From positions 1 to 50,656 of the IMG/VR virus record IMGVR_UViG_3300037805_000715: DNA of 50,656 bases, one strand, 5' to 3'. The translations under genes were made by a program, and so were the position numbers. How positions within the stretch are numbered: the first letter of the stretch is position 1; each line of letters starts with the position of its first letter. This DNA comes from a virus. This document shows positions 3,723 through 50,656 of the stretch, in pieces. The notes beneath the pieces are model-generated. The model did not search any database. It saw only the letters and a list, made by a program, of their open reading frames with translations, and was not told where the DNA came from.

Positions 3723-3741
3723 ATTATCACAGTGTGATAAT
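3723..3741. promoter_or_regulatory. Operator-like palindrome, copy 1
   Basis: ATTATCACAGTGTGATAAT, a perfect 19-bp palindrome around a central base, in the gap between divergent genes. It ends 16 bases before the TATAAG at 3758, so it would cover the -35 region of the rightward promoter. Confidence 0.85.
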
Positions 3742-21047: not shown

Positions 21048-24000
21048 CTAGTACGGCGACTTGACGCCGTCCTTACCCTCCACTGCTTTCCCGAACTCCT
21101 TCGAGAACACAATACCCGGCACAGGGTGTACGCCGTGGATGTCGGACGACCACCCCTCGTTGGACGCCGAAGTGAGTGTCTCCCGGAGGTTTCGGTACTG
21201 CATCCGCGCCAGCCAGTCCGTTGTCCGGTCCAGGGCTAGCGTCTCTACGCCACGCAACACAGGCGTCACCTTGATAGGCGAGCGCTTCCCCGGGTTCTTG
21301 TTCAGCGTGCGCGCTGCTGAGAGTTGGATGTAATCACCGGAGATAATACCGGCGTCATCGCCTACCTCGCCCGCGGAGTTCACCACGCCCAAATCAGTGA
21401 GTGACTTGATCACGACCTCCACGTTACGGCGCTTGATCCCCTCCTTTTCGTACACGGTAGCCAGTTCATGCGTGAGGTAGCTTTGCACGCGTCCAATGTT
21501 CGTGCGCTCCAAGAGCTCACGCGGGTCAATCGGCCCACCTGTGAGGGCATCGCCCTTTCGGACAATGTCACCCTTCTTGACCTTGAGTGCCTTGCCTCCG
21601 AGCGTGTAGTGCTTCGTACCGCCGATGTATACGCTCTTCCCACCCATTGGGTCGTCTTCGATGCGGTCAACCGTACCAGCCAGGTCTGCGAGCTTCGCTT
21701 TGTTCGGCAGGATCTTCGGCATCTTTAGCAGCTGTGTGACGCGGGCGAGTCCGCCCATCACGGCAGAACCCGCACCGGCAACGCCGCCTGTGTGGAAGGC
21801 CTTCATGCTCAACTGTGTACCGCGCTCACCGATCGTCTGACCCGCGAGGATGCCGATGTTCGCCCCGACCTCAATCTTCTTACCGCTCTCCGTGGTGCCG
21901 TAGCACGTGCCACACAACCCCTTCTTCGCCTCGCACTTATGCACGGACCGCACAGGGACATCCTTGATCTTCAGGTCTGTGCGAATCCGGGACATGATCC
22001 CAGGTGTGACAATCGTCCCAGCCTTGAACGTACTCCCCTGCACAGTTATGTCGCGGTAAAGTGCGCGCCCTGTGATGTCGCGGTCCATTTTAGGAAGCAC
22101 GATCCCGTTCTTGGTTCCGCAGTCATCCACGGTCACCACGTAGGGGATCGTCGTGTTTACGATCTGCTTAGACAGCGCACCCGGCTCGGACACCGACTGC
22201 ACCTTCTCAATCAGGCCCTTGCGTGCACCGGCCGCGGCCGTCCAGTACCCCGCGGAGGACAGGCCCTCGGAATAGCTGCGCTCGACAGGCACGGGTATGG
22301 TGCGCCCCTCCGAGTTAGTGAGGAGCATCGGCGCGACAAGCATCTGACGGAGCTGCGACCAGGACGGCTTGACGCCGGCCTCGGTCATCTGGAACAGCTT
22401 GTTGCCGGTCGCCCGAAGGTGCGCGCGTGCGTCCACGTCCAGGTCATCCGTAGCCTGCGTGTAGATCTCTATAATCTTTGCGTCTTTGGCAGCCCCAGTC
22501 AGCGACTTCGGGAACGCCGCAATCTTCGACTTCGCGGACGCAAAGTGCTTTGCTCGGATGGAGCGTAGCGCCTGGAAATCCTTCATGGTGAAGCTGAAGC
22601 CAATATCGTACGAGTGGCCGAAGCCCAGGTCCTTGATCTTGTCGGCAGTCTCCGCGAACTGCAACGGGGCGTTCAGTGCGACAGACCGCAGGGACGCCTG
22701 TAGCGTGTCTTTGTCCATGACGCGCGTGGGGTCCGACAGCAGTGCGGCACTGCGTGCCTTCTCAGGCAGCGCCTGACTCATCGCGATACGCCCTGCCGTA
22801 GTTTTTACACCACCCGCCGTGATGACGTCGGTCATTTTAAGCTTCCCTGCACGCGCTTCCCGCAGCGCCGCAGCTTGCGAGCTGAACGACTTACCCGTGT
22901 CGTCGCCCCACTGCGACATGAGGAACAGCCCGAGCTGCCCCTCGAGTGTCGGCTGGTACATAACCTGCCCCGTCGCGGGGGAGAACAGGTTTTTGGACGG
23001 CATCATGCGATAGGCTTCGTCGACAGCGCCCTTGCCCATGGGGACGAAGATGGCCATCGCGTCGCCGTCGAAGTCGGCGTTGAACCCGCTGGTCACTAGC
23101 GGGTGTATGTGGATCGCCTTCCCATCCACGAGCTTGGCCTTGAAGCCCATGATGCCGAACTTGTGCAGCACGGGGTCCCGTTTGAACAGCACCGGGCGCT
23201 TATCCATGGCCACCTGTAGCGCACGCGTGGCCAGCGGAGTTTGCTTCTTGATCTCAGCACGTGCCTCGAGAGGCGACTGCCCCATCTTAACGAGCTCGCG
23301 TACGACGAACGGGCGGAAGATCTTGTCCGCAGCCTTACGTGGGAGTCCAACCTCGTCGAGGTGTAGATCCATGTCGGGCACAATGACCGCACGCATGGAC
23401 AGATCCTGCTTCCGGTCCAGCAGTTTCCGGTGGAAGTAGCTGTTCTTCGGCGAGGTGCGTCCAGATAGGATCGTCATGACGCCAGGTGGCCGTGACGTCC
23501 CGTCAGTGAGCGTTCCAGGCGCGCTAGGGGGCGATACACCCATCAGCGCCTCAACAGCGTCGTATACGTCCATGGTGAGCCCGTCGAGGTCCTTGCGAGG
23601 GAGAACGCCGTCGGAATCACGCCGAGCACCATTGAGCAGCGCCACCTCGCGGTACAGCCCGTTCAACCCGTCTACGTTCAAGTCGCCACTGGTCATCGCG
23701 GTGATTGGCCTGTAGTGGGGCGGGAGTACTGGGATGTTGTGCAGCGTGTACGCTTCCTCGGCCGACATACCAGCGCGCTCCAGAGAGGAGAGGAATTTAA
23801 CGCGCTTGCGCGCAAGGTTCCGCTTAGTGCCGCGTGTGTGCTCGATCTCCTTCTTGTACTTCAGGATTAACTGTTCGCGGTCCTGCTTGTCGAGGCCCTG
23901 CAGCGCTTCGACGATTGCGCGTGCACCCTTCACCTTGGCCGTGTCCGACACCTTCCCGGACTCGTTGATGCCGGCTGAGCCGCTCATGATGGCGTCGAAG

Positions 24001-27000
24001 TCCTTTCCGCGCAGACCAAGCAGGGCGAGTATGGACCGCTCAAACACTGGGTTCGGGATGGCCTCCTTTAGCTCGATATGCGCCCACCGCTTGCCGCCGG
24101 GGCCGCCTGTGATCTTCGCGTCGAACAGCCCGCCCTCCTCAGGGGCCAGGTCCTTCCCACGAACCATACGCTCAGGATGGCTCAACGCGCCGGAGGACAT
24201 CTCCGTGATCTGTTTGTCGGTGAGCGGCAGGACGGTGAGCTCGTGTCCGTTCTTCTCGACATCGACACCGAGTACGTTCAGGTACGCCAGGAACTTGGCG
24301 TACGCAAACGCAGACTTGGGGGCGGGCGGCAGCTGACCCGTCTGGATCGCATCCCAAACAGCCTCCTGTGTCCGATCGGACTTGTACGTTGCCGCGTCCC
24401 GGATGTTGTTTACCGCACCGTGCGCGAGCATGGAGTACAGCCCCAGCTCACCAAACCTCTGCGCGCCGTCGCCACCCCCGAAACTTGAGCGTGGCACGTT
24501 GTTGATGTCGTACGAGTGGCCGTAACCATGTGCTCGCGCAGTTAGCTTCTTCTCGGACTGGTGTGTCTGCTTAATGACATACTGTTGGCCGACCATGACG
24601 TCTTCGAGCTTCTGACCGGTCACTGGATCAAACAGGTCCTCGGTGTCACTGACGCCGACCTCGTCCATGATCTTCTGCACCATGCCCGCGTAGCCTACGT
24701 CGTACTCGTAGGGCTTGATCCAGATGCGCTTCTTACCCTTAGCCGTCTGGACAAGGCGCCAGTGCCCCTTAACCTTTACGGTCTTTGGCGCCGCCCGAGC
24801 GATCATGCGCCCCTCAGTATCTGCGAACGACGAGACTTGCATGATGTCGCCGGACGCTAGCGCGGCCTTCCCGAGATTCGTCTCCAGCACCTGCCCGAGG
24901 TTGATGCGGCCAGGAACCCCCGACGGGTTCATGATGATCTCGATCGCGTTACCATCGGCATCGTGCGGCATCTCCTCGTCGGGGAGCACCGCTGTGACCA
25001 CGCCCTTGTTTCCGTGACGACCGCTGTTACCGCTCCAGCACGGCTTCCCGTTTCGTCGGACATACAGTACGTGCCCCGGAACGGTCACGCAGTACACCTC
25101 ACCGGTGTAGTCCTCAACGAACTCCTCGGTCTGCGAGTTTTGCTGATGGACGTGTCCGTGGTTCACCTGCGGGGTCAGCTTCTTGTTGATGACCCGAACG
25201 GAGTACCGTGGACGGAAGTCGTACAAGACTCCCTTGATCACCCCCTCCGACGCTTCGGTGAATTTGATGTTCGCCGCCTTGCCGATGTGCAGGCACAGGC
25301 GCTGCACATCGTCAGCCAGTTGGCGCGACGTTGTCGTGTAGCAGATCGGCTTGTTGTGCCTCGTGTGGCCATCGCCCCACATGAGCCATGCGAACAGGAT
25401 CTCAAGATCTTTGCGCGTGCAGTCGAACACCCATTCCGGGATGAACTTCTCGTGGGCGTGACCAAACTGCACGAAGTGCTGCATGAGCTGCTTGGAGTAG
25501 ATGACTACCTTCTGCCCGTTGCTGCCTTCTGAGAACTTCACGCCGTGATCGCGTAGTGCGTCGAGCAGCTGCGTGCGGTGCGGCTCCTTGTACTTCGTGA
25601 TCGCGATCCCGTAGGACCCGCTGCTCGGTTGGTTGACGATGTTTCCGTCCGCGAGGTAGGCCCCCAGGAGCAGCATGTATGTCTGCAGCGGCATCTCCTT
25701 CTCAGCGATCAGTCGAGTGCCGACTCCGCCGCGGCCTGCCGCAACACGCTCGGGCGCAAACCGAATCGCATCAGGCGATTCCCCGAGCCAATCTCCGTCC
25801 TTCTTGTAGCGCACGCGCTTCCCCGCGATCTCCTCTGCGGGTAGCAGCTCGAACTCGTCGCGACCACGCCGCTGCACGAACATGCGGTGCGCGCTTGTCA
25901 CAAACTGGTCGACCTGCTGCGACTGGATGCGGTACATGCGTCCGCCATGTGCATAGCTATGTAGCTCGCTGGGCGCGCTGTACACGATGCGATGGCCGTC
26001 GATCAGCGTACACACCTCGTCTTCGAGCGTAACCTCGCTCACAGGCTTCCAACCGGCTCGCGTGAGCACGTCGGTCTGTGCGTCGAAGCACAATTTGTCT
26101 CCTATGTCCACCGGCTCCTCGGTGCGGATATGGATCTTGAGCTCACGACCATGCCGGGTGACCGCCACCACCTCCCCACTGTACGGCTTGTCCCACGTGA
26201 TCGATGCGTCCTTGTAAGGCTTCACAAGAGACCGGTGCACACCCTTCAGGATCAACTGCTCCTTGGTCGGGTTCTTCTTCTCGAGGATTGCGGCGATCAC
26301 GTCTCCTGGGCGCAGCGTCTCGCCAACCTTGACAACCCCGTCTTCCAGCTTCTCGGCGTTGTCGTTGCTAATGTGGCCGGGGTACAGTGCCCGGAACTTC
26401 TCCGTGTTGACTTCGGTCTCCCGGCCGAGGAACTCACTCTTCTTATGCATGTGCATAGAGGTGAGCTTCTTGGATCCGGTCTCTGAGACTACGATTCCGT
26501 CCTCGAACACGAGGCCCTTGAACGGCAGGAACGCAACCTTCATGTTGACGCCCATGGAGAGCGTACCGCCGCGGGTGAAGTTGGTGTCGGCAAGCAAATC
26601 ACCTACGTCCACCTTGTCGCCCACCTCCACGCTGGGCTCGGAGTTCAGGAACGACTTCTTCTCGTTCAGGGGGAAGTTCCTGTAGAGCGGCTCAGCGTGC
26701 TCCTTACCCTTGCCGTCGCGCACGACGATCTTCGTCGGCTCCACGCGCACAACCGTACCCTTCACCTTCGAGAAGTGTGCGGACGTGCGACCAAGGATCT
26801 TTTCCCACGACGACATGTTCGGATCACTGCTGCTCGACGCAACCTGGACGAGGGGCTCCTCGCGGTTCACCAGCGAGACCGTCTGCTCGAGGTGTCGGTC
26901 AGCCATGCCTGCGCGACCCGATTGGTCGGACGGGAGGAACGGTACTAGGTTTGTGGCGACAGACAGCATGGACGCGCCAGAGCGAATGACGTAGTCCACG

Positions 27001-28460
27001 TCTTTCGCGGAAACCTCGACAGGGTCCGAGCTCTTCGGCTGTATCGCCTTAACTACGTCGCGCTTTGCGACGAGCTTTCCGCGCTTGTTGGTCGTGTACT
27101 CGTCTGCGAAGGCGACCGTCTTGTCGTACAGGTCTACCGGCGTCACAAAACGCTCTTTCCCCGTCCGCGCGTCTATGACCTTGATCGCGGCCTCGTTACC
27201 GATCTTCTTGGCACCAATACTCAGGTGTGTGGTGACACCACTTCGACTACCTTCTGGCGTGTACACCGGATCGACGAAACCCATCTGCGAGGCGTCGATC
27301 CCCTTTGCTGCGTTGGTGATTGCCTGCTCTGAGCCGATGCCGCCCGTGCCCATCAGCGTCAGCCTTAGGTGCCCGCCAAGCATGTGGATCGGGTTGTTCT
27401 GGTCGGGCTGCTGCGCCAGGTCAGACATCGTGAAGAACGACTTGACTGGAACCTGGAAAAGGGTCCGGTCCACGATCCCGCGAATGTCGCCAGCAGCGGC
27501 CTTTCGATCGAAGCCGTTGGCCAACTTCCGGTTGATGCCGCGGCTGGAGTTGCGCAGCCGCTCGGGGATGTGATCTGAGATGTCCCAGAGCGCCTTGAAC
27601 CTGTACGAGTCGCGGTTGTCCGGCTCGGCCGTCCCTCGGTTGATGTTGAGCAGTTTCGTAGAGGCGGCGAGAAGTGCAGAGCCGTCCACGGTCGTGTGGG
27701 GCTTCCCTAGCGTGATCTTCGTGGTGTCTGGGAGAAGTTCCGTCGCGCCGAGGGCCTCTCGGATGATCTCCTCCTGAGACTGTCCGGTGGCGGGGGCGTT
27801 GGCGTACCCGCGAGGACCAACTGCCCTAACCATCTTCTCCAGAGCACCAGTCGTGCGGTGTGCGTCAATCTCGGCCATGGCCTCTGCGCCCCATGCCTTC
27901 TTGATCTCGGCGTCAGACACGCCGAGCGCGCGCAGGACAGGCATCAGCGGGACATTGATAGTTCCGTACCGGAGCAAGAACCGCTTCCGCTCGGGTTCGA
28001 ACTGCATCGAGAAGCCGCGCCCCTTGACCAAGTTGAACTGCGACTCGAGCTCGCCGTTAGCCTTACGCCGTGCGTACACTCCGCTTTTGAGGCGGGTCTG
28101 GTTGTCAGGCTGGTACTCGGTTCCGTCGATGATGTACGAGTACCGCTTCGTGATGTGCGGCAGCTTCAGGACAGACATGCCCTTTTTCTCGGCCACTACG
28201 CGTGAGGTGGCTTTGTCGATGATCTTGAAGTCGCCCGCAATCGGAGAGGCCCACGTGCGCTTTGTCATGCGCGCCTTGTACTGCGCGTCGAGGTCGTCTA
28301 CGCGTAGGTCCTTCGTAGCGCGAACGTTAGACACCTCAAGGCGGTACTTCTCTGTCTCGAACGGGAAGTATCGTTCAATTTCCTTGATTGTGCCGCTCAG
28401 CAGAGCCGCCGCCGTAGGGCGCGGGTTGAGCTTGTTTAGCACTAGGGGCTTCTCAGACAT
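21048..28460 (-). CDS. Single-chain beta-beta' RNA polymerase with intein
   Basis: 2,470 codons; about 2,115 residues after intein removal. The N-terminal half is RpoB-like up to FGGGDGAQRFGELGLYSMLA near residue 1330. The C-terminal half is RpoC-like: GGLFDAKITGG...RWAHIEL, the catalytic NADFDGD at 1794-1800, the second zinc site (DDCGT, then CEAKKGLCGTCYG) and AGQTIGERGTQLSMKAFHTGG. The first RpoC zinc module is absent: GGLFD leads directly to RWAHIEL without CxC...CxxC. Lys residues of GDK and GNKG flank the intein site. GGAGG precedes the ATG. It probably transcribes phage genes; no alpha, omega or sigma gene is visible in the window. Confidence 0.95.
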   Translation of the reverse strand: MSEKPLVLNKLNPRPTAAALLSGTIKEIERYFPFETEKYRLEVSNVRATKDLRVDDLDAQYKARMTKRTWASPIAGDFKIIDKATSRVVAEKKGMSVLKLPHITKRYSYIIDGTEYQPDNQTRLKSGVYARRKANGELESQFNLVKGRGFSMQFEPERKRFLLRYGTINVPLMPVLRALGVSDAEIKKAWGAEAMAEIDAHRTTGALEKMVRAVGPRGYANAPATGQSQEEIIREALGATELLPDTTKITLGKPHTTVDGSALLAASTKLLNINRGTAEPDNRDSYRFKALWDISDHIPERLRNSSRGINRKLANGFDRKAAAGDIRGIVDRTLFQVPVKSFFTMSDLAQQPDQNNPIHMLGGHLRLTLMGTGGIGSEQAITNAAKGIDASQMGFVDPVYTPEGSRSGVTTHLSIGAKKIGNEAAIKVIDARTGKERFVTPVDLYDKTVAFADEYTTNKRGKLVAKRDVVKAIQPKSSDPVEVSAKDVDYVIRSGASMLSVATNLVPFLPSDQSGRAGMADRHLEQTVSLVNREEPLVQVASSSSDPNMSSWEKILGRTSAHFSKVKGTVVRVEPTKIVVRDGKGKEHAEPLYRNFPLNEKKSFLNSEPSVEVGDKVDVGDLLADTNFTRGGTLSMGVNMKVAFLPFKGLVFEDGIVVSETGSKKLTSMHMHKKSEFLGRETEVNTEKFRALYPGHISNDNAEKLEDGVVKVGETLRPGDVIAAILEKKNPTKEQLILKGVHRSLVKPYKDASITWDKPYSGEVVAVTRHGRELKIHIRTEEPVDIGDKLCFDAQTDVLTRAGWKPVSEVTLEDEVCTLIDGHRIVYSAPSELHSYAHGGRMYRIQSQQVDQFVTSAHRMFVQRRGRDEFELLPAEEIAGKRVRYKKDGDWLGESPDAIRFAPERVAAGRGGVGTRLIAEKEMPLQTYMLLLGAYLADGNIVNQPSSGSYGIAITKYKEPHRTQLLDALRDHGVKFSEGSNGQKVVIYSKQLMQHFVQFGHAHEKFIPEWVFDCTRKDLEILFAWLMWGDGHTRHNKPICYTTTSRQLADDVQRLCLHIGKAANIKFTEASEGVIKGVLYDFRPRYSVRVINKKLTPQVNHGHVHQQNSQTEEFVEDYTGEVYCVTVPGHVLYVRRNGKPCWSGNSGRHGNKGVVTAVLPDEEMPHDADGNAIEIIMNPSGVPGRINLGQVLETNLGKAALASGDIMQVSSFADTEGRMIARAAPKTVKVKGHWRLVQTAKGKKRIWIKPYEYDVGYAGMVQKIMDEVGVSDTEDLFDPVTGQKLEDVMVGQQYVIKQTHQSEKKLTARAHGYGHSYDINNVPRSSFGGGDGAQRFGELGLYSMLAHGAVNNIRDAATYKSDRTQEAVWDAIQTGQLPPAPKSAFAYAKFLAYLNVLGVDVEKNGHELTVLPLTDKQITEMSSGALSHPERMVRGKDLAPEEGGLFDAKITGGPGGKRWAHIELKEAIPNPVFERSILALLGLRGKDFDAIMSGSAGINESGKVSDTAKVKGARAIVEALQGLDKQDREQLILKYKKEIEHTRGTKRNLARKRVKFLSSLERAGMSAEEAYTLHNIPVLPPHYRPITAMTSGDLNVDGLNGLYREVALLNGARRDSDGVLPRKDLDGLTMDVYDAVEALMGVSPPSAPGTLTDGTSRPPGVMTILSGRTSPKNSYFHRKLLDRKQDLSMRAVIVPDMDLHLDEVGLPRKAADKIFRPFVVRELVKMGQSPLEARAEIKKQTPLATRALQVAMDKRPVLFKRDPVLHKFGIMGFKAKLVDGKAIHIHPLVTSGFNADFDGDAMAIFVPMGKGAVDEAYRMMPSKNLFSPATGQVMYQPTLEGQLGLFLMSQWGDDTGKSFSSQAAALREARAGKLKMTDVITAGGVKTTAGRIAMSQALPEKARSAALLSDPTRVMDKDTLQASLRSVALNAPLQFAETADKIKDLGFGHSYDIGFSFTMKDFQALRSIRAKHFASAKSKIAAFPKSLTGAAKDAKIIEIYTQATDDLDVDARAHLRATGNKLFQMTEAGVKPSWSQLRQMLVAPMLLTNSEGRTIPVPVERSYSEGLSSAGYWTAAAGARKGLIEKVQSVSEPGALSKQIVNTTIPYVVTVDDCGTKNGIVLPKMDRDITGRALYRDITVQGSTFKAGTIVTPGIMSRIRTDLKIKDVPVRSVHKCEAKKGLCGTCYGTTESGKKIEVGANIGILAGQTIGERGTQLSMKAFHTGGVAGAGSAVMGGLARVTQLLKMPKILPNKAKLADLAGTVDRIEDDPMGGKSVYIGGTKHYTLGGKALKVKKGDIVRKGDALTGGPIDPRELLERTNIGRVQSYLTHELATVYEKEGIKRRNVEVVIKSLTDLGVVNSAGEVGDDAGIISGDYIQLSAARTLNKNPGKRSPIKVTPVLRGVETLALDRTTDWLARMQYRNLRETLTSASNEGWSSDIHGVHPVPGIVFSKEFGKAVEGKDGVKSPY
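25026..26090 (-). mobile_element. LAGLIDADG intein in the RNA polymerase catalytic site
   Basis: 355 residues in frame, polymerase residues 791-1145. It begins at Cys (CFDAQTDVLT), has block B TSAHRMFV, two LAGLIDADG-like motifs (LLGAYLADGN and FAWLMWGDGH), a KFIPEWVF block D and a C-terminal VYCVTVPGHVLYV block. It ends SGN before Ser+1. The usual penultimate His is Gly. Removal joins VDIGDKL to SGRHGNKG, restoring the invariant RpoB GDKxxGRHGNKG segment. All splicing blocks and both homing-endonuclease motifs look intact, so it may still be mobile. Confidence 0.95.
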
Positions 28461-47641: not shown

Positions 47642-48328
47642 ATGTTGAGTATCGGATTTGACCCAGGCAAGACAGGCGGCGTCGCGGTCCTACGGGATGG
47701 CGCAGTAATCCTGGGGCTACATGACATGCCGTACCGGAACAAGGCGAGCAGGCATGGGGACTACAACCTCGCGCAACTACTCGCCCTACTTCTCCCGCTC
47801 AGTCCGCACGCGTCACTTCTGACGGCACGTGCGCTTTTGGCGGATACGCAGGAGCTGCTCGAGTCCGCGACGGTCACCGCAACCGCCAAGTACGGCGAAT
47901 GCGGGATGCTCCAGTCGGACGAGTTTGTAGACGCACTAACCGCACACAGCAACGTAATGCACGAGATCGCGAACCTCCCGCGCGACCATGAGGTGATGGC
48001 GTTCGTTGAGCGGCAACAGCCTATGCGTGGGCAAGGGAAGAGTGACGGAGTGAAGGCGGCGTTTGGGGTCGGGCTAGGGTGGGGTACGTTGCGCGCCATG
48101 TGCTTCGCACTCGGCATCCCAGTGACAGACCTCACCGCCGCAAGGTGGCAGCGCCGTATGCAAGTGTACGGACTCAAGTTGGAGGGTATCGCGAAGAAGA
48201 GGTACCACATCCAAACCGCGCAGCGGATGTTCCCGTCTGCGGAAATAGGCACATCGGATGGGCGGGCAGACGCGCTCCTCATCGCACGGTGCGGCTGGTT
48301 GGAGCACAATGGTTCGACTGGATCCTGA
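47642..48328 (+). CDS. RuvC-like Holliday junction resolvase
   Basis: 228 residues from ATG 47642. RNase H-fold acids typical of RuvC: D7 in GFDPGKTGG, E123 in FVERQQP, and D206/D210 in SDGRADALLIA. GVGLGWGTLRAMCFALGIP fits the long RuvC helix. It should cut branched DNA before packaging, complementing the RecA-like and Cas4-like enzymes. Confidence 0.85.
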   Translation: MLSIGFDPGKTGGVAVLRDGAVILGLHDMPYRNKASRHGDYNLAQLLALLLPLSPHASLLTARALLADTQELLESATVTATAKYGECGMLQSDEFVDALTAHSNVMHEIANLPRDHEVMAFVERQQPMRGQGKSDGVKAAFGVGLGWGTLRAMCFALGIPVTDLTAARWQRRMQVYGLKLEGIAKKRYHIQTAQRMFPSAEIGTSDGRADALLIARCGWLEHNGSTGS

Positions 48329-48665
48329 CCAACGGGCCTACCTGTACAAGGTGGACCTTCGACAGCTGCCTGAGATCGTTCTGACGTTACCGCTGGACGA
48401 GCTCAGGCACGCGGTGTTTCGAGCACGCGGCAAGTGGCCTTGCCGGTCATCTACGGCCGAGCAATTACACGAGATGCTGTGGCATAAGACGCCTGTTAGT
48501 ACTGGGCCCATACACGCCCTACGAGATACGTTAGTGGAGTACATAAACGAGCACAGCGAGAACTTGAGCCTGCACTGCGACGGCGACTGCACGAAGCATC
48601 CAGACGCGGTTGTCGTGGCGTGTTATATGGAGTACATCGACGACGCACCACAACTACTTGAATAG
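48309..48665 (+). CDS. Hypothetical protein
   Basis: 118 residues from ATG 48309 (MVRLDPDQ), with GGAG five bases upstream, overlapping the resolvase end by 20 bases. LDELRHAVFRARGKWPCRSSTAEQLHEML resembles a small helical DNA-binding fold, but no specific family is recognised. Contains HCDGDCTKH near the end, a possible metal site. Confidence 0.72.
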   Translation: MVRLDPDQRAYLYKVDLRQLPEIVLTLPLDELRHAVFRARGKWPCRSSTAEQLHEMLWHKTPVSTGPIHALRDTLVEYINEHSENLSLHCDGDCTKHPDAVVVACYMEYIDDAPQLLE

Positions 48666-48673
48666 GGGATGCC

Positions 48674-49750
48674 GTGGTTACGAAACCTGCTGGGCCGCGC
48701 AAGGTGCGGAAGGTCCAGCCACCCAAGGTAAAGGCGATTACACGCCTGGCGCAGAAACACTTCGACGGACTGACCGACCCAGAACTGCGCTACGTGGTTG
48801 TGGTCCTGGGGCTGTTCACGTTCACAGAGGTGTACGCATCGACCGGCCGAAAAGAGATGGTGCAGCGACTCGTATCGAGCGATGGCATCGAAGAGCTACG
48901 TACCCTTGAACTTGCAGAAGACGCGCACGAGAGCCTAGGTGACATTTCTGCCACCTACCTCGTGCAAACGAGCGCGGCCCTGAACGGGCTCCAAGCACTC
49001 CCGAAGTGGGAGTCGCTCGCAGCAGACTGGAACGCGGAATTAGCCGCAAATGGAGGAGACCTCGAGATGGCCAAGAGTAAACTCGCTTTCCGTAATCCCG
49101 CAACCCGCACAAAGAAGCTCGCCGAAAATAAGGCGCCCGAGGTAGAGGCGCCCACAGAGGCTGACGCCCAGGAAGCGGCAGCGGAAGCAACGACGCCGAA
49201 GAAGAAGGGCCCGCTCAAGAAGAAGCCGCTCGCGCCGCGGCGCGCCGCCAAGGCGGTAAAGGCCGTCGAGCCCGAGCCCGAAGCCGAGCCCGAAGCCGAG
49301 CCCGAAGCCGAGCCCGAAGCCGAGCCCGAAGCCGAGGCAGCACCCGCGGCCGAAGAGGGCGCCGAGGAAGCTGCGATGCCGTTTGAAGAGGAGGCCCTCG
49401 ACCGCCTCGACGCGATCGAGGAGCGCTGCAACGAAGGGTTCGAGGCGATCGACGTCGCACGCGGCGAGACAAGCGCCTCGCTGCACGACGTCCTCGTGGC
49501 GCTTCGCGCGCAATCCGCGAAGAATGAGGAGCTCCTCACGAACCTCCTCGCGCTCAGCGAGTTGGCGGCCACGCAGGCGCAGGTGATCACGAAGATGAAC
49601 GCGTTCATGGCCGGCTTGAGCGGCTACGGCGACGCCGAGATCGAGGATCTCGACGGCATCACGCCTGAGCAGGCGCTCGCTGACGGCGCGGAGTTCCGTA
49701 CTCTCGTCGCGAGCATCGCGAATGGCGACGACGAAGGCGACGAAGAGTAG
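48674..49750 (+). CDS. Hypothetical protein with Glu/Pro/Ala repeat; possible internal start
   Basis: 358 residues from GTG 48674, with GGGGATGCC upstream. Residues 1-131 are ordinary. After LAANGGDLE an in-frame ATG at 49067 follows GGAGGAG, an excellent ribosome site, so a 227-residue C-terminal product may also be made. That part has a Lys-rich stretch, a PEPEAEPEAE repeat, then an acidic coiled coil (LDRLDAIEERCNEGFEAI) and acidic tail. Nested long/short products with this composition recall phage scaffolding proteins, but function is unknown. Confidence 0.75.
   Translation: MVTKPAGPRKVRKVQPPKVKAITRLAQKHFDGLTDPELRYVVVVLGLFTFTEVYASTGRKEMVQRLVSSDGIEELRTLELAEDAHESLGDISATYLVQTSAALNGLQALPKWESLAADWNAELAANGGDLEMAKSKLAFRNPATRTKKLAENKAPEVEAPTEADAQEAAAEATTPKKKGPLKKKPLAPRRAAKAVKAVEPEPEAEPEAEPEAEPEAEPEAEAAPAAEEGAEEAAMPFEEEALDRLDAIEERCNEGFEAIDVARGETSASLHDVLVALRAQSAKNEELLTNLLALSELAATQAQVITKMNAFMAGLSGYGDAEIEDLDGITPEQALADGAEFRTLVASIANGDDEGDEE
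49274..49333 (+). repeat. 12-bp tandem repeat, five copies
   Basis: Five perfect copies of GAGCCCGAAGCC encoding PEPEAEPEAE-type sequence in the 48674 gene. In-frame, so copy number can vary. Confidence 0.92.
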
Positions 49751-49784
49751 CTGCAAAAGCCAGGGTGCTTTGTGGGATAAGGAT

Positions 49785-49790
49785 TATAGT
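49785..49790 (+). promoter_or_regulatory. TATAGT promoter for candidate RNA
   Basis: GGGATAAGGATTATAGT combines the GGGNATAAG motif with TATAGT and is followed at once by the hairpin GGGAACAGTGTTCCC. Confidence 0.5.
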
Positions 49791-49964
49791 GGGAACAGTG
49801 TTCCCCTAACATCCTGTCTCGCCGATTCCCCTGGTGAGTCTGTCCCCATTCTGGGTTGACTTGGGTGTGCCTGCCGGCGTCTCATAAACTCGTTTGCCCG
49901 AACGAGGAGACGACAAACCCAGCAGGTAAGGAGGGTCGACTTGCCCGGTCGACCCTCCACTTTT
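49791..49964 (+). ncRNA. Candidate structured RNA
   Basis: No plausible ORF, but a series of stems: GGGAAC/GTTCCC at the 5' end; CTCGCC/GGTGAG (49818-49838); an outer CTGGGTT/AACCCAG (49851-49857 with 49916-49922) enclosing CGTCTC/GAGACG (49878-49883 with 49907-49912) and CTCGTT/AACGAG (49889-49894 with 49901-49906). A terminator ends it, just before the tRNA. A promoter motif precedes it. It matches no RNA family I can name; a regulatory leader for the tRNA or the gene beyond is the alternative. Confidence 0.6.
49930..49964 (+). terminator. Perfect terminator hairpin abutting the tRNA
   Basis: GGAGGGTCGAC and GTCGACCCTCC form an 11-bp stem with a seven-base loop, then ACTTTT ending one base before the tRNA. 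Confidence 0.88.
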
Positions 49965-50038
49965 GGGCCCATAGCTCAGTTGGTTAGAGCTGCCGGCTCA
50001 TAACCGGTTGGTCCCAGGTTCAAGTCCTGGTGGGCCCA
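49965..50038 (+). tRNA. tRNA with CAU anticodon (Met or Ile2)
   Basis: Complete cloverleaf: acceptor GGGCCCA/TGGGCCC with discriminator A, D stem GCTC/GAGC, anticodon stem GCCGG/CCGGT with loop CTCATAA (anticodon 49999-50001), and T arm CCAGG-TTCAAGT-CCTGG. CCA is not encoded. It is not an initiator type. The C-G-rich acceptor and the G-U closing the anticodon stem resemble tRNA-Ile2, whose CAU is modified to lysidine to read AUA; elongator Met cannot be excluded. Confidence 0.93.
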
Positions 50039-50055
50039 TGCTAGGTACTTCATTT

Positions 50056-50098
50056 CGGGAGGGTCTCCTCCCTCCTAACCCTCCCGGAAGCTTCCGGG
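50056..50098 (+). other. Mutually exclusive hairpins after the tRNA
   Basis: CGGGAGGGT/ACCCTCCCG (50056-50086) shares its 3' arm with the palindrome CCCGGAAGCTTCCGGG (50083-50098), so only one can form. This may be a tRNA processing or attenuation structure. Confidence 0.45.
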
Positions 50099-50105
50099 GT
50101 GCCTA

Positions 50106-50155
50106 GAGGGGGGCCCAGCTAAGCCGCTAACGCGGTCTGGGTTCCCCTCATTTTT
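50106..50155 (+). terminator. Long-stem rho-independent terminator
   Basis: A 13-bp stem (GAGGGGGGCCCAG with CTGGGTTCCCCTC, two G-U pairs), an inner CCGC/GCGG stem, then ATTTTT. It ends the tRNA transcript. Confidence 0.9.
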
Positions 50156-50238
50156 ACCTATACAACTCGCTAGCGCGCCGTACGGGACTTGCAGAGACCG
50201 TATACGCACACATACGTGCAAAACGGGCGTACTGGATG

Positions 50239-50250
50239 GGTATAAGAACT
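50239..50250 (+). promoter_or_regulatory. GGGTATAAGAAC promoter motif
   Basis: GGGTATAAGAACTGTG preceded by GCGTACTGG, closely matching the promoter motif at 13041. Confidence 0.6.
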
Positions 50251-50270
50251 GTGTAGGGGAACGTACACCA

Positions 50271-50294
50271 TGACTCTGGAGCGAGTTCGGTGAC
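50271..50294 (+). CDS. Seven-codon leader ORF
   Basis: ATG ACT CTG GAG CGA GTT CGG TGA encodes MTLERVR. AGGGG lies 11 bases upstream and a promoter motif sits about 20 bases before it. It could be a translated leader for the last gene or a chance ORF. Confidence 0.3.
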
Positions 50295-50350
50295 GTTTCC
50301 TGGTGGATATCTCTCTGTGCCGATTTTGGTGCTGATTGATTGAAGCCGCA

Positions 50351-50369
50351 TATAGTGCCCCTTGGGCAC
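50351..50369 (+). promoter_or_regulatory. TATAGT element with 5' hairpin
   Basis: TATAGT (50351-50356) followed by GTGCCCCTTGGGCAC (50355-50369), a 6-bp hairpin, then GAGGAGGT. This repeats the TATAGT-plus-hairpin layout at 49785. Confidence 0.45.
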
Positions 50370-50381
50370 GAGGAGGTCATC

Positions 50382-50656
50382 ATGGCCATCTTGAAGACGC
50401 GCACGCCCGGTATCCTGGCCACCATGGGCGTGACCCGCAAGACTCGCGGGCGCCAAGCCCGCGAGAACCTCGGCGCCGCGGGCGCCGTGCTTGGCGACCA
50501 CCTGGCCGCCGAGGCGGCGGCCGACCTCTACGGCGCCGCCAAGGGCGCCGTGCTTGGCGTCATCGGCGGCGGCGCCCGCGAGCGCCGCGAGGCCGGTCGC
50601 GACGAGGCGTTCCTCGCGCGCTACGTCGCCGCGAGCGACGCCGTCGACGCCGCCAA
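50382..50656 (+). CDS. Truncated Ala/Gly/Arg-rich gene at window edge
   Basis: 91 codons before the window ends. ATG with GAGGAGGT seven bases upstream. The protein is Ala/Gly/Arg-rich, with a duplicated GA(A/K)GAVLG segment (GAAGAVLGD and AAKGAVLGV). Nearly all third positions are G or C, unlike most genes in the window but like the C-terminal part of the 48674 gene. Strong ribosome site and 5' hairpin suggest an abundant product. Function not recognised; the rest is outside the window. Confidence 0.75.
   Translation, partial: MAILKTRTPGILATMGVTRKTRGRQARENLGAAGAVLGDHLAAEAAADLYGAAKGAVLGVIGGGARERREAGRDEAFLARYVAASDAVDAA

Follow-up and report, generated by a model that had tools for sequence, protein, structure and literature searches.

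A structured non-coding RNA candidate directly upstream of a CAU tRNA gene in a large, little-known phage

Does the DNA that lies immediately ahead of a phage tRNA gene, at positions 49791-49964 of the stretch studied here, specify an RNA in its own right, and if so, does that RNA belong with the tRNA that follows? An earlier note, made from the sequence, had described this segment as a structured RNA of no recognizable family, equipped with its own promoter. We use "the window" for the whole stretch of DNA analyzed, 50,656 nucleotides of IMG/VR record IMGVR_UViG_3300037805_000715. Our analysis indicates that the segment is a real candidate for a structured, non-coding transcription unit, an orphan in sequence, and that it is probably transcribed; as a non-coding RNA candidate it is solid but unproven.

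The phage and its relatives

The window covers part of the genome of a large, little-known phage, to which Vibrio phage D181 and Salmonella phage Arash are related at about 30%. A 2470-aa fused beta-beta' protein (21048-28460, minus strand) represents the phage's own multi-subunit RNA polymerase. This protein carries a probable LAGLIDADG intein running from C792 (FDAQTDVLTRAGW) to SGN/S, just before the conserved GRHGNKG motif, and the homologous polymerase of contig G024 has no LAGLIDADG insert. The closest relative is G009 (IMGVR 3300025770_000008, 143 kb), with a polymerase identity of 50-58%; it also encodes its own multi-subunit RNA polymerase, and the gene order from the helicase to the gene at 48258-48665 is kept between it and the window. 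Contig G001 (IMGVR 3300037805_000525, 109 kb) has a 19-bp palindrome system in common with the window, and protein pieces at its end match; it may come from elsewhere in the genome of this phage or from one very close to it.

This palindrome, ATTATCACANTGTGATAAT, occurs nine times in the window (at 3723, 9810, 16732, 21026, 28514, 32721, 37231, 43145 and 46040), with 0 copies expected. Another 22 are found in G001, and most of the 31 cores are intergenic. The flanks are often extended by differing letters, as a hairpin would be (GGAATTATC...GATAATTCC, CGCAGTTATC...GATAACTGCG). A GG[TCG]ATAAG core, described below, lies within 120 nt downstream of 13 of the 31. G009 has a repeated palindrome of its own, GTGACCACAA-N2-TTGTGGTCAC.

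A structured segment behind a lineage-specific promoter motif

The features of the locus, all on the plus strand, are as follows.

49753..49781, +, phage-lineage promoter GCAAAA-N16-GGGATAAG (whole element GCAAAAGCCAGGGTGCTTTGTGGGATAAG), a motif common to the relatives
49791..49805, +, 5'-terminal hairpin GGGAAC-AGT-GTTCCC, read from the sequence (z -2.7)
49806..49868, +, domain 2, branched stem-loops, the weakest part (-20.1 kcal/mol, z -2.2)
49868..49928, +, domain 3, a long stem-loop that contains CGTCTC/GAGACG and CTCGTT/AACGAG and has the apical loop UUGCCCG (-25.8 kcal/mol, z -4.7, 0/300 shuffles as stable)
49930..49964, +, GC-rich 11-bp hairpin (an inverted repeat) followed by ACTTTT, a terminator-like 3' end (z -5.4)
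49965..50038, +, CAU tRNA, probably of the tRNA-Ile2 and not the tRNA-Met type, CCA not encoded (Rfam tRNA 71.7 bits; ARAGORN 49964-50039)
50042..50104, +, 3' trailer domain with a three-way stem structure (-29.3 kcal/mol, z about -2.4)
50105..50155, +, strong hairpin resembling a terminator, tail ATTTTT, where the unit probably ends (-34.5 kcal/mol, z -6.2)

The promoter motif follows a consensus of the lineage, GCAAAA-N15-17-GG[GCT]ATAAG, often with AACTATG next to it, which is found in intergenic regions of sister phages. In the relaxed form GCAAA-N14-22-GNATAAG it occurs 26 times in the window, G001, G009 and G024 taken together, compared with 0-3 times in shuffles. Over the 160 kb of the window and G001 the core GG[TCG]ATAAG is present 32 times on the plus strand and 0 times on the minus strand, so leftward genes, the one for the RNA polymerase among them, must have promoters of a different class. 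Around the locus the motif is limited to 49753-49781 and 50218-50246; neither the motif nor a match in a sigma-70 scan was found between 49781 and the tRNA. The earlier note was thus right that a promoter motif precedes the segment and wrong about its identity, which it took to be TATAGT: as a sigma-70 -10 box this hexamer lacks a -35 element and a match in the sigma-70 scan, and the lineage motif takes its place. We also dropped a T7-like or N4-like hairpin promoter reading of TATAGTG and the adjoining hairpin, as the 5 copies of TATAGTG in 160 kb are no enrichment. A second TATAGTG is present at 50351-50375, with a hairpin (GTGCCCCTTGGGCAC) at once after it; the ribosome-binding site for the ORF that starts at 50382 comes next.

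In G009 a ribosome-binding site and an ATG follow the lineage motif within about 24 nt, so the transcription start can be no more than a few bases away from ATAAG. By the same spacing the start here would fall at about 49783-49791 and would place the first hairpin at or next to the 5' end.

The segment folds far better than expected from its composition. The 172-nt RNA reaches -70.5 kcal/mol versus -52.0 +/- 4.2 for dinucleotide shuffles (z -4.4), and none of 200 shuffles folds as stably. When the parts were scored separately with 300 shuffles each, this excess proved to be uneven and to come from domain 3 (z -4.7) and the 11-bp hairpin at the end (z -5.4). The structural part of the earlier note has therefore held up: the 5' hairpin lies at 49791-49805 near the likely start, the perfect stems GGGAAC/GTTCCC, CGTCTC/GAGACG and CTCGTT/AACGAG are all present, the second and third of these within 49878-49912, and the terminal hairpin pairs GGAGGGTCGAC with GTCGACCCTCC over 11 bp (49930-49958) and runs into ACTTTT. 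Among 615 folding tiles over the window (plus strand at full density, minus strand at half), 49929-50051 and 50052-50174 rank 1 and 2 by excess folding and 49806-49928 ranks 18. These top ranks show that the unusual stretch is longer than first noted and covers leader, tRNA, trailer and terminator, about 49790-50155.

The claim that the segment holds no ORF is literally incorrect, since a 62-aa ATG frame on the minus strand (49784-49972) overlaps it and a 40-aa GTG frame begins at 49865 on the plus strand. Its substance stands, with coding support for neither frame: PHROGs gave no match to either and phage records none to the 62-aa frame. A decayed gene, or GC-rich intergenic DNA folding by chance, would be in keeping with a domain 2 barely above shuffles and with the finding of no conservation. 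We nevertheless consider a non-functional segment unlikely, given two parts with z about -5, a promoter motif exactly on the 5' side and a precise junction between the U-tract and the tRNA.

The tRNA junction and the proposed fate of the leader

The CAU tRNA is probably a tRNA-Ile2, judging from its sequence: the C4-G69 and C5-G68 pairs and the CUCAUAA loop can be read directly, and these fit the TilS determinants of tRNA-Ile2. AUA is used at 6.6 per 1000 codons in this phage. The four T of the leader (49961-49964) directly adjoin tRNA base 1 at 49965. With the promoter motif absent between leader and tRNA, the polymerase must read through the final hairpin to reach the tRNA, and with the T tract abutting base 1, RNase P cleavage or intrinsic termination would leave the same RNA. 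The suggestion that the segment is a leader controlling what follows is therefore supported in its physical part, at the level of motifs, and not as to the control itself.

We favor, at a probability of about 0.5, a single transcription unit of promoter, structured leader, tRNA-CAU, trailer and terminator in which the leader RNA is stable. Transcription from the phage-specific promoter at 49753-49781 would begin at about 49783-49791 and proceed through the 5' leader (to 49964), the tRNA (49965-50038) and the structured trailer before stopping at the hairpin-T5 near 50155. RNase P would cleave at tRNA base 1 and free a leader of about 175 nt. With a hairpin at the 5' end and a hairpin with U4 at the 3' end, this leader would be protected on both sides, and we propose that it survives as a stable non-coding RNA. 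If some of the transcripts terminated at the final hairpin, they would be identical to this leader, and their share would determine how much leader RNA there is relative to tRNA. The start site, processing and stability of the leader RNA are inferred, and any action in trans is speculation. The second lineage motif (50218-50246) lies past the terminator at 50155, which closes the unit.

Observations bear on the single-unit reading in both directions. Domain 3 and the final hairpin of the leader are much stabler than shuffles and the tRNA and trailer tiles hold the two highest ranks; against it, domain 2 is weakly structured, and the final hairpin has the look of a terminator, a feature that a simple leader could do without. 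The RNA resembles RNase P-processed tRNA-precursor leaders in preceding a tRNA with the promoter motif absent in between and in ending at tRNA position -1. Most tRNA leaders are short, whereas this one is unusually long (about 175 nt), branched and closed by a terminator-like hairpin.

If that hairpin is the usual 3' end, the RNA could be an independent trans-acting small RNA, with the tRNA made by occasional read-through and two UUGCCCG loops serving as pairing seeds. We see this as possible but doubtful. A promoter motif of its own, a 5' hairpin and a 3' end of hairpin and U4 are shared with intrinsically terminated phage and prophage small RNAs, and the identical 7-nt loop does cap both stable hairpins. 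However, the T-tract is short and weak, with GGG right after ACTTTT, its tail is weaker than those of the lineage's other terminators, and the terminator scan did not list the hairpin at 49930-49958 with its 11-bp stem and tail ACTTTTGGG. The tRNA directly downstream and the want of a candidate target or chaperone site also set it apart from such small RNAs. A seed role for the loops also lacks statistical backing: 14% of shuffles have as many repeated 7-mers as the segment, which is within chance, and the loop complement CGGGCAA is not enriched in the phage. The earlier proposal of a decoy or regulatory RNA found no support here, and a putative regulatory role is possible. Two further candidates were rejected: the resemblance of GCCGGCGTCTCATAA to the tRNA anticodon arm (12/15) as an anticodon-loop mimic is not supported statistically, and GGGAACAGTGTTCCC as a repeated operator has no second copy.

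A terminator-like hairpin immediately 5' of a tRNA also invites the idea of a cis-attenuator, in which tRNA synthesis would be controlled by a signal that makes the leader adopt a terminator or an antiterminator fold. The 11-mer GGGTTGACTTG (49853-49863) agrees with the 5' arm of the terminator at 10/11 positions, and CTGGGTT:AACCCAG offers a competing 7-bp pairing. This pairing crosses CCTGC:GCAGG, though, and enforcing it costs 10 kcal/mol. A conserved aptamer is absent and we found no precedent for a riboswitch-controlled phage tRNA; we regard a cis-attenuator as very unlikely.

Homologue searches and GOLLD in the slot of the closest relative

In Rfam, no family except tRNA exceeds its threshold at the locus, which bears out the earlier statement that the RNA matches no known family. 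No homologue of the leader was found in Rfam, in phage and plasmid records, in about 57 related contigs or in an 18-nt scan of two contig collections. With blastn, the tRNA was the sole match in phages, leader or trailer alone gave nothing meaningful, and plasmids yielded no homologue. A single-sequence covariance model (R1) matched only itself in the window and relatives and had no match over 50 related records and further loci. Viral contigs recruited through the neighboring proteins (48674-49750) and the DNA polymerase likewise gave no homologue. Exact patterns and single-sequence models miss diverged relatives, so this absence applies to these collections and is not proof.

Several hits to short patterns were discarded. 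The 18-nt RNA pattern matched one unrelated low-GC coding region in the viral contig collection and three MAG contigs in the genome contig collection in which model R1 found no match. A pattern from the 5' end of the tRNA retrieved seven unrelated phages with similar tRNAs and no homologue of the RNA. A 20-nt match in G001 is inside coding sequence, and an 18-nt match in G021 is isolated, with no tRNA found nearby; both were taken as chance.

The same slot in G009 is occupied by a GOLLD RNA (RF02032). It lies at 127731-128128 on the plus strand (7731-8128 in L178) and matches all 416 model positions with 137.3 bits (E 6.8e-38). The curated Rfam cut-off for GOLLD is 150, so the match is just below it and default annotation would miss it. 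The same match is present in two further contigs of this phage. The GOLLD is part of a region of about 850 nt that starts at the same kind of promoter, downstream of a conserved anchor gene (125500-125754 in G009, 48258-48665 in the window). Five other lineages with the anchor gene (L190, L191, L192, L194, L197) have no obvious counterpart there; short gaps follow the anchor, they yielded no tRNA, and an Rfam match is absent in three of the five. A further lineage, L196, was left out of this comparison, as its downstream part is too short. The sharing of the slot by the window RNA and the GOLLD of G009 may be coincidence, as it is here that the rightward replication operon ends.

GOLLD RNAs form 14-mer cages, their linker can carry tRNAs, and ROOL RNAs (RF03087) are often near tRNAs as well (PMC12286853). 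It is conceivable that leader, embedded tRNA and trailer together make one assembly-forming ornate RNA at the locus that GOLLD holds in the nearest relative, anchored by the same gene and behind the same promoter class. Like GOLLD, the window RNA is a phage-encoded, tRNA-associated structured RNA. Unlike GOLLD, it has about 290 nt outside the tRNA versus more than 800 nt in many GOLLDs, and the conserved 3' region, about 416 positions long, is missing from it. The GOLLD covariance model, which does work on G009, gave no match in sequence or structure in 49700-50380 up to E 5, no similarity to the GOLLD of G009 was found, and the ROOL model, from another phage non-coding RNA, had no match in the window or in 50 related contigs. 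We therefore regard such an assembly as very unlikely.

In the same vein, we give little credence to the idea that leader, tRNA and trailer represent an undescribed class of tRNA-linked phage RNA that took GOLLD's place at this locus and does the same job. If the window RNA itself were confirmed, the few phage RNAs associated with tRNA genes would gain an orphan structured member, and one locus holding GOLLD in one phage and a different RNA in another would provide a natural comparison for learning what GOLLD-type RNAs do.
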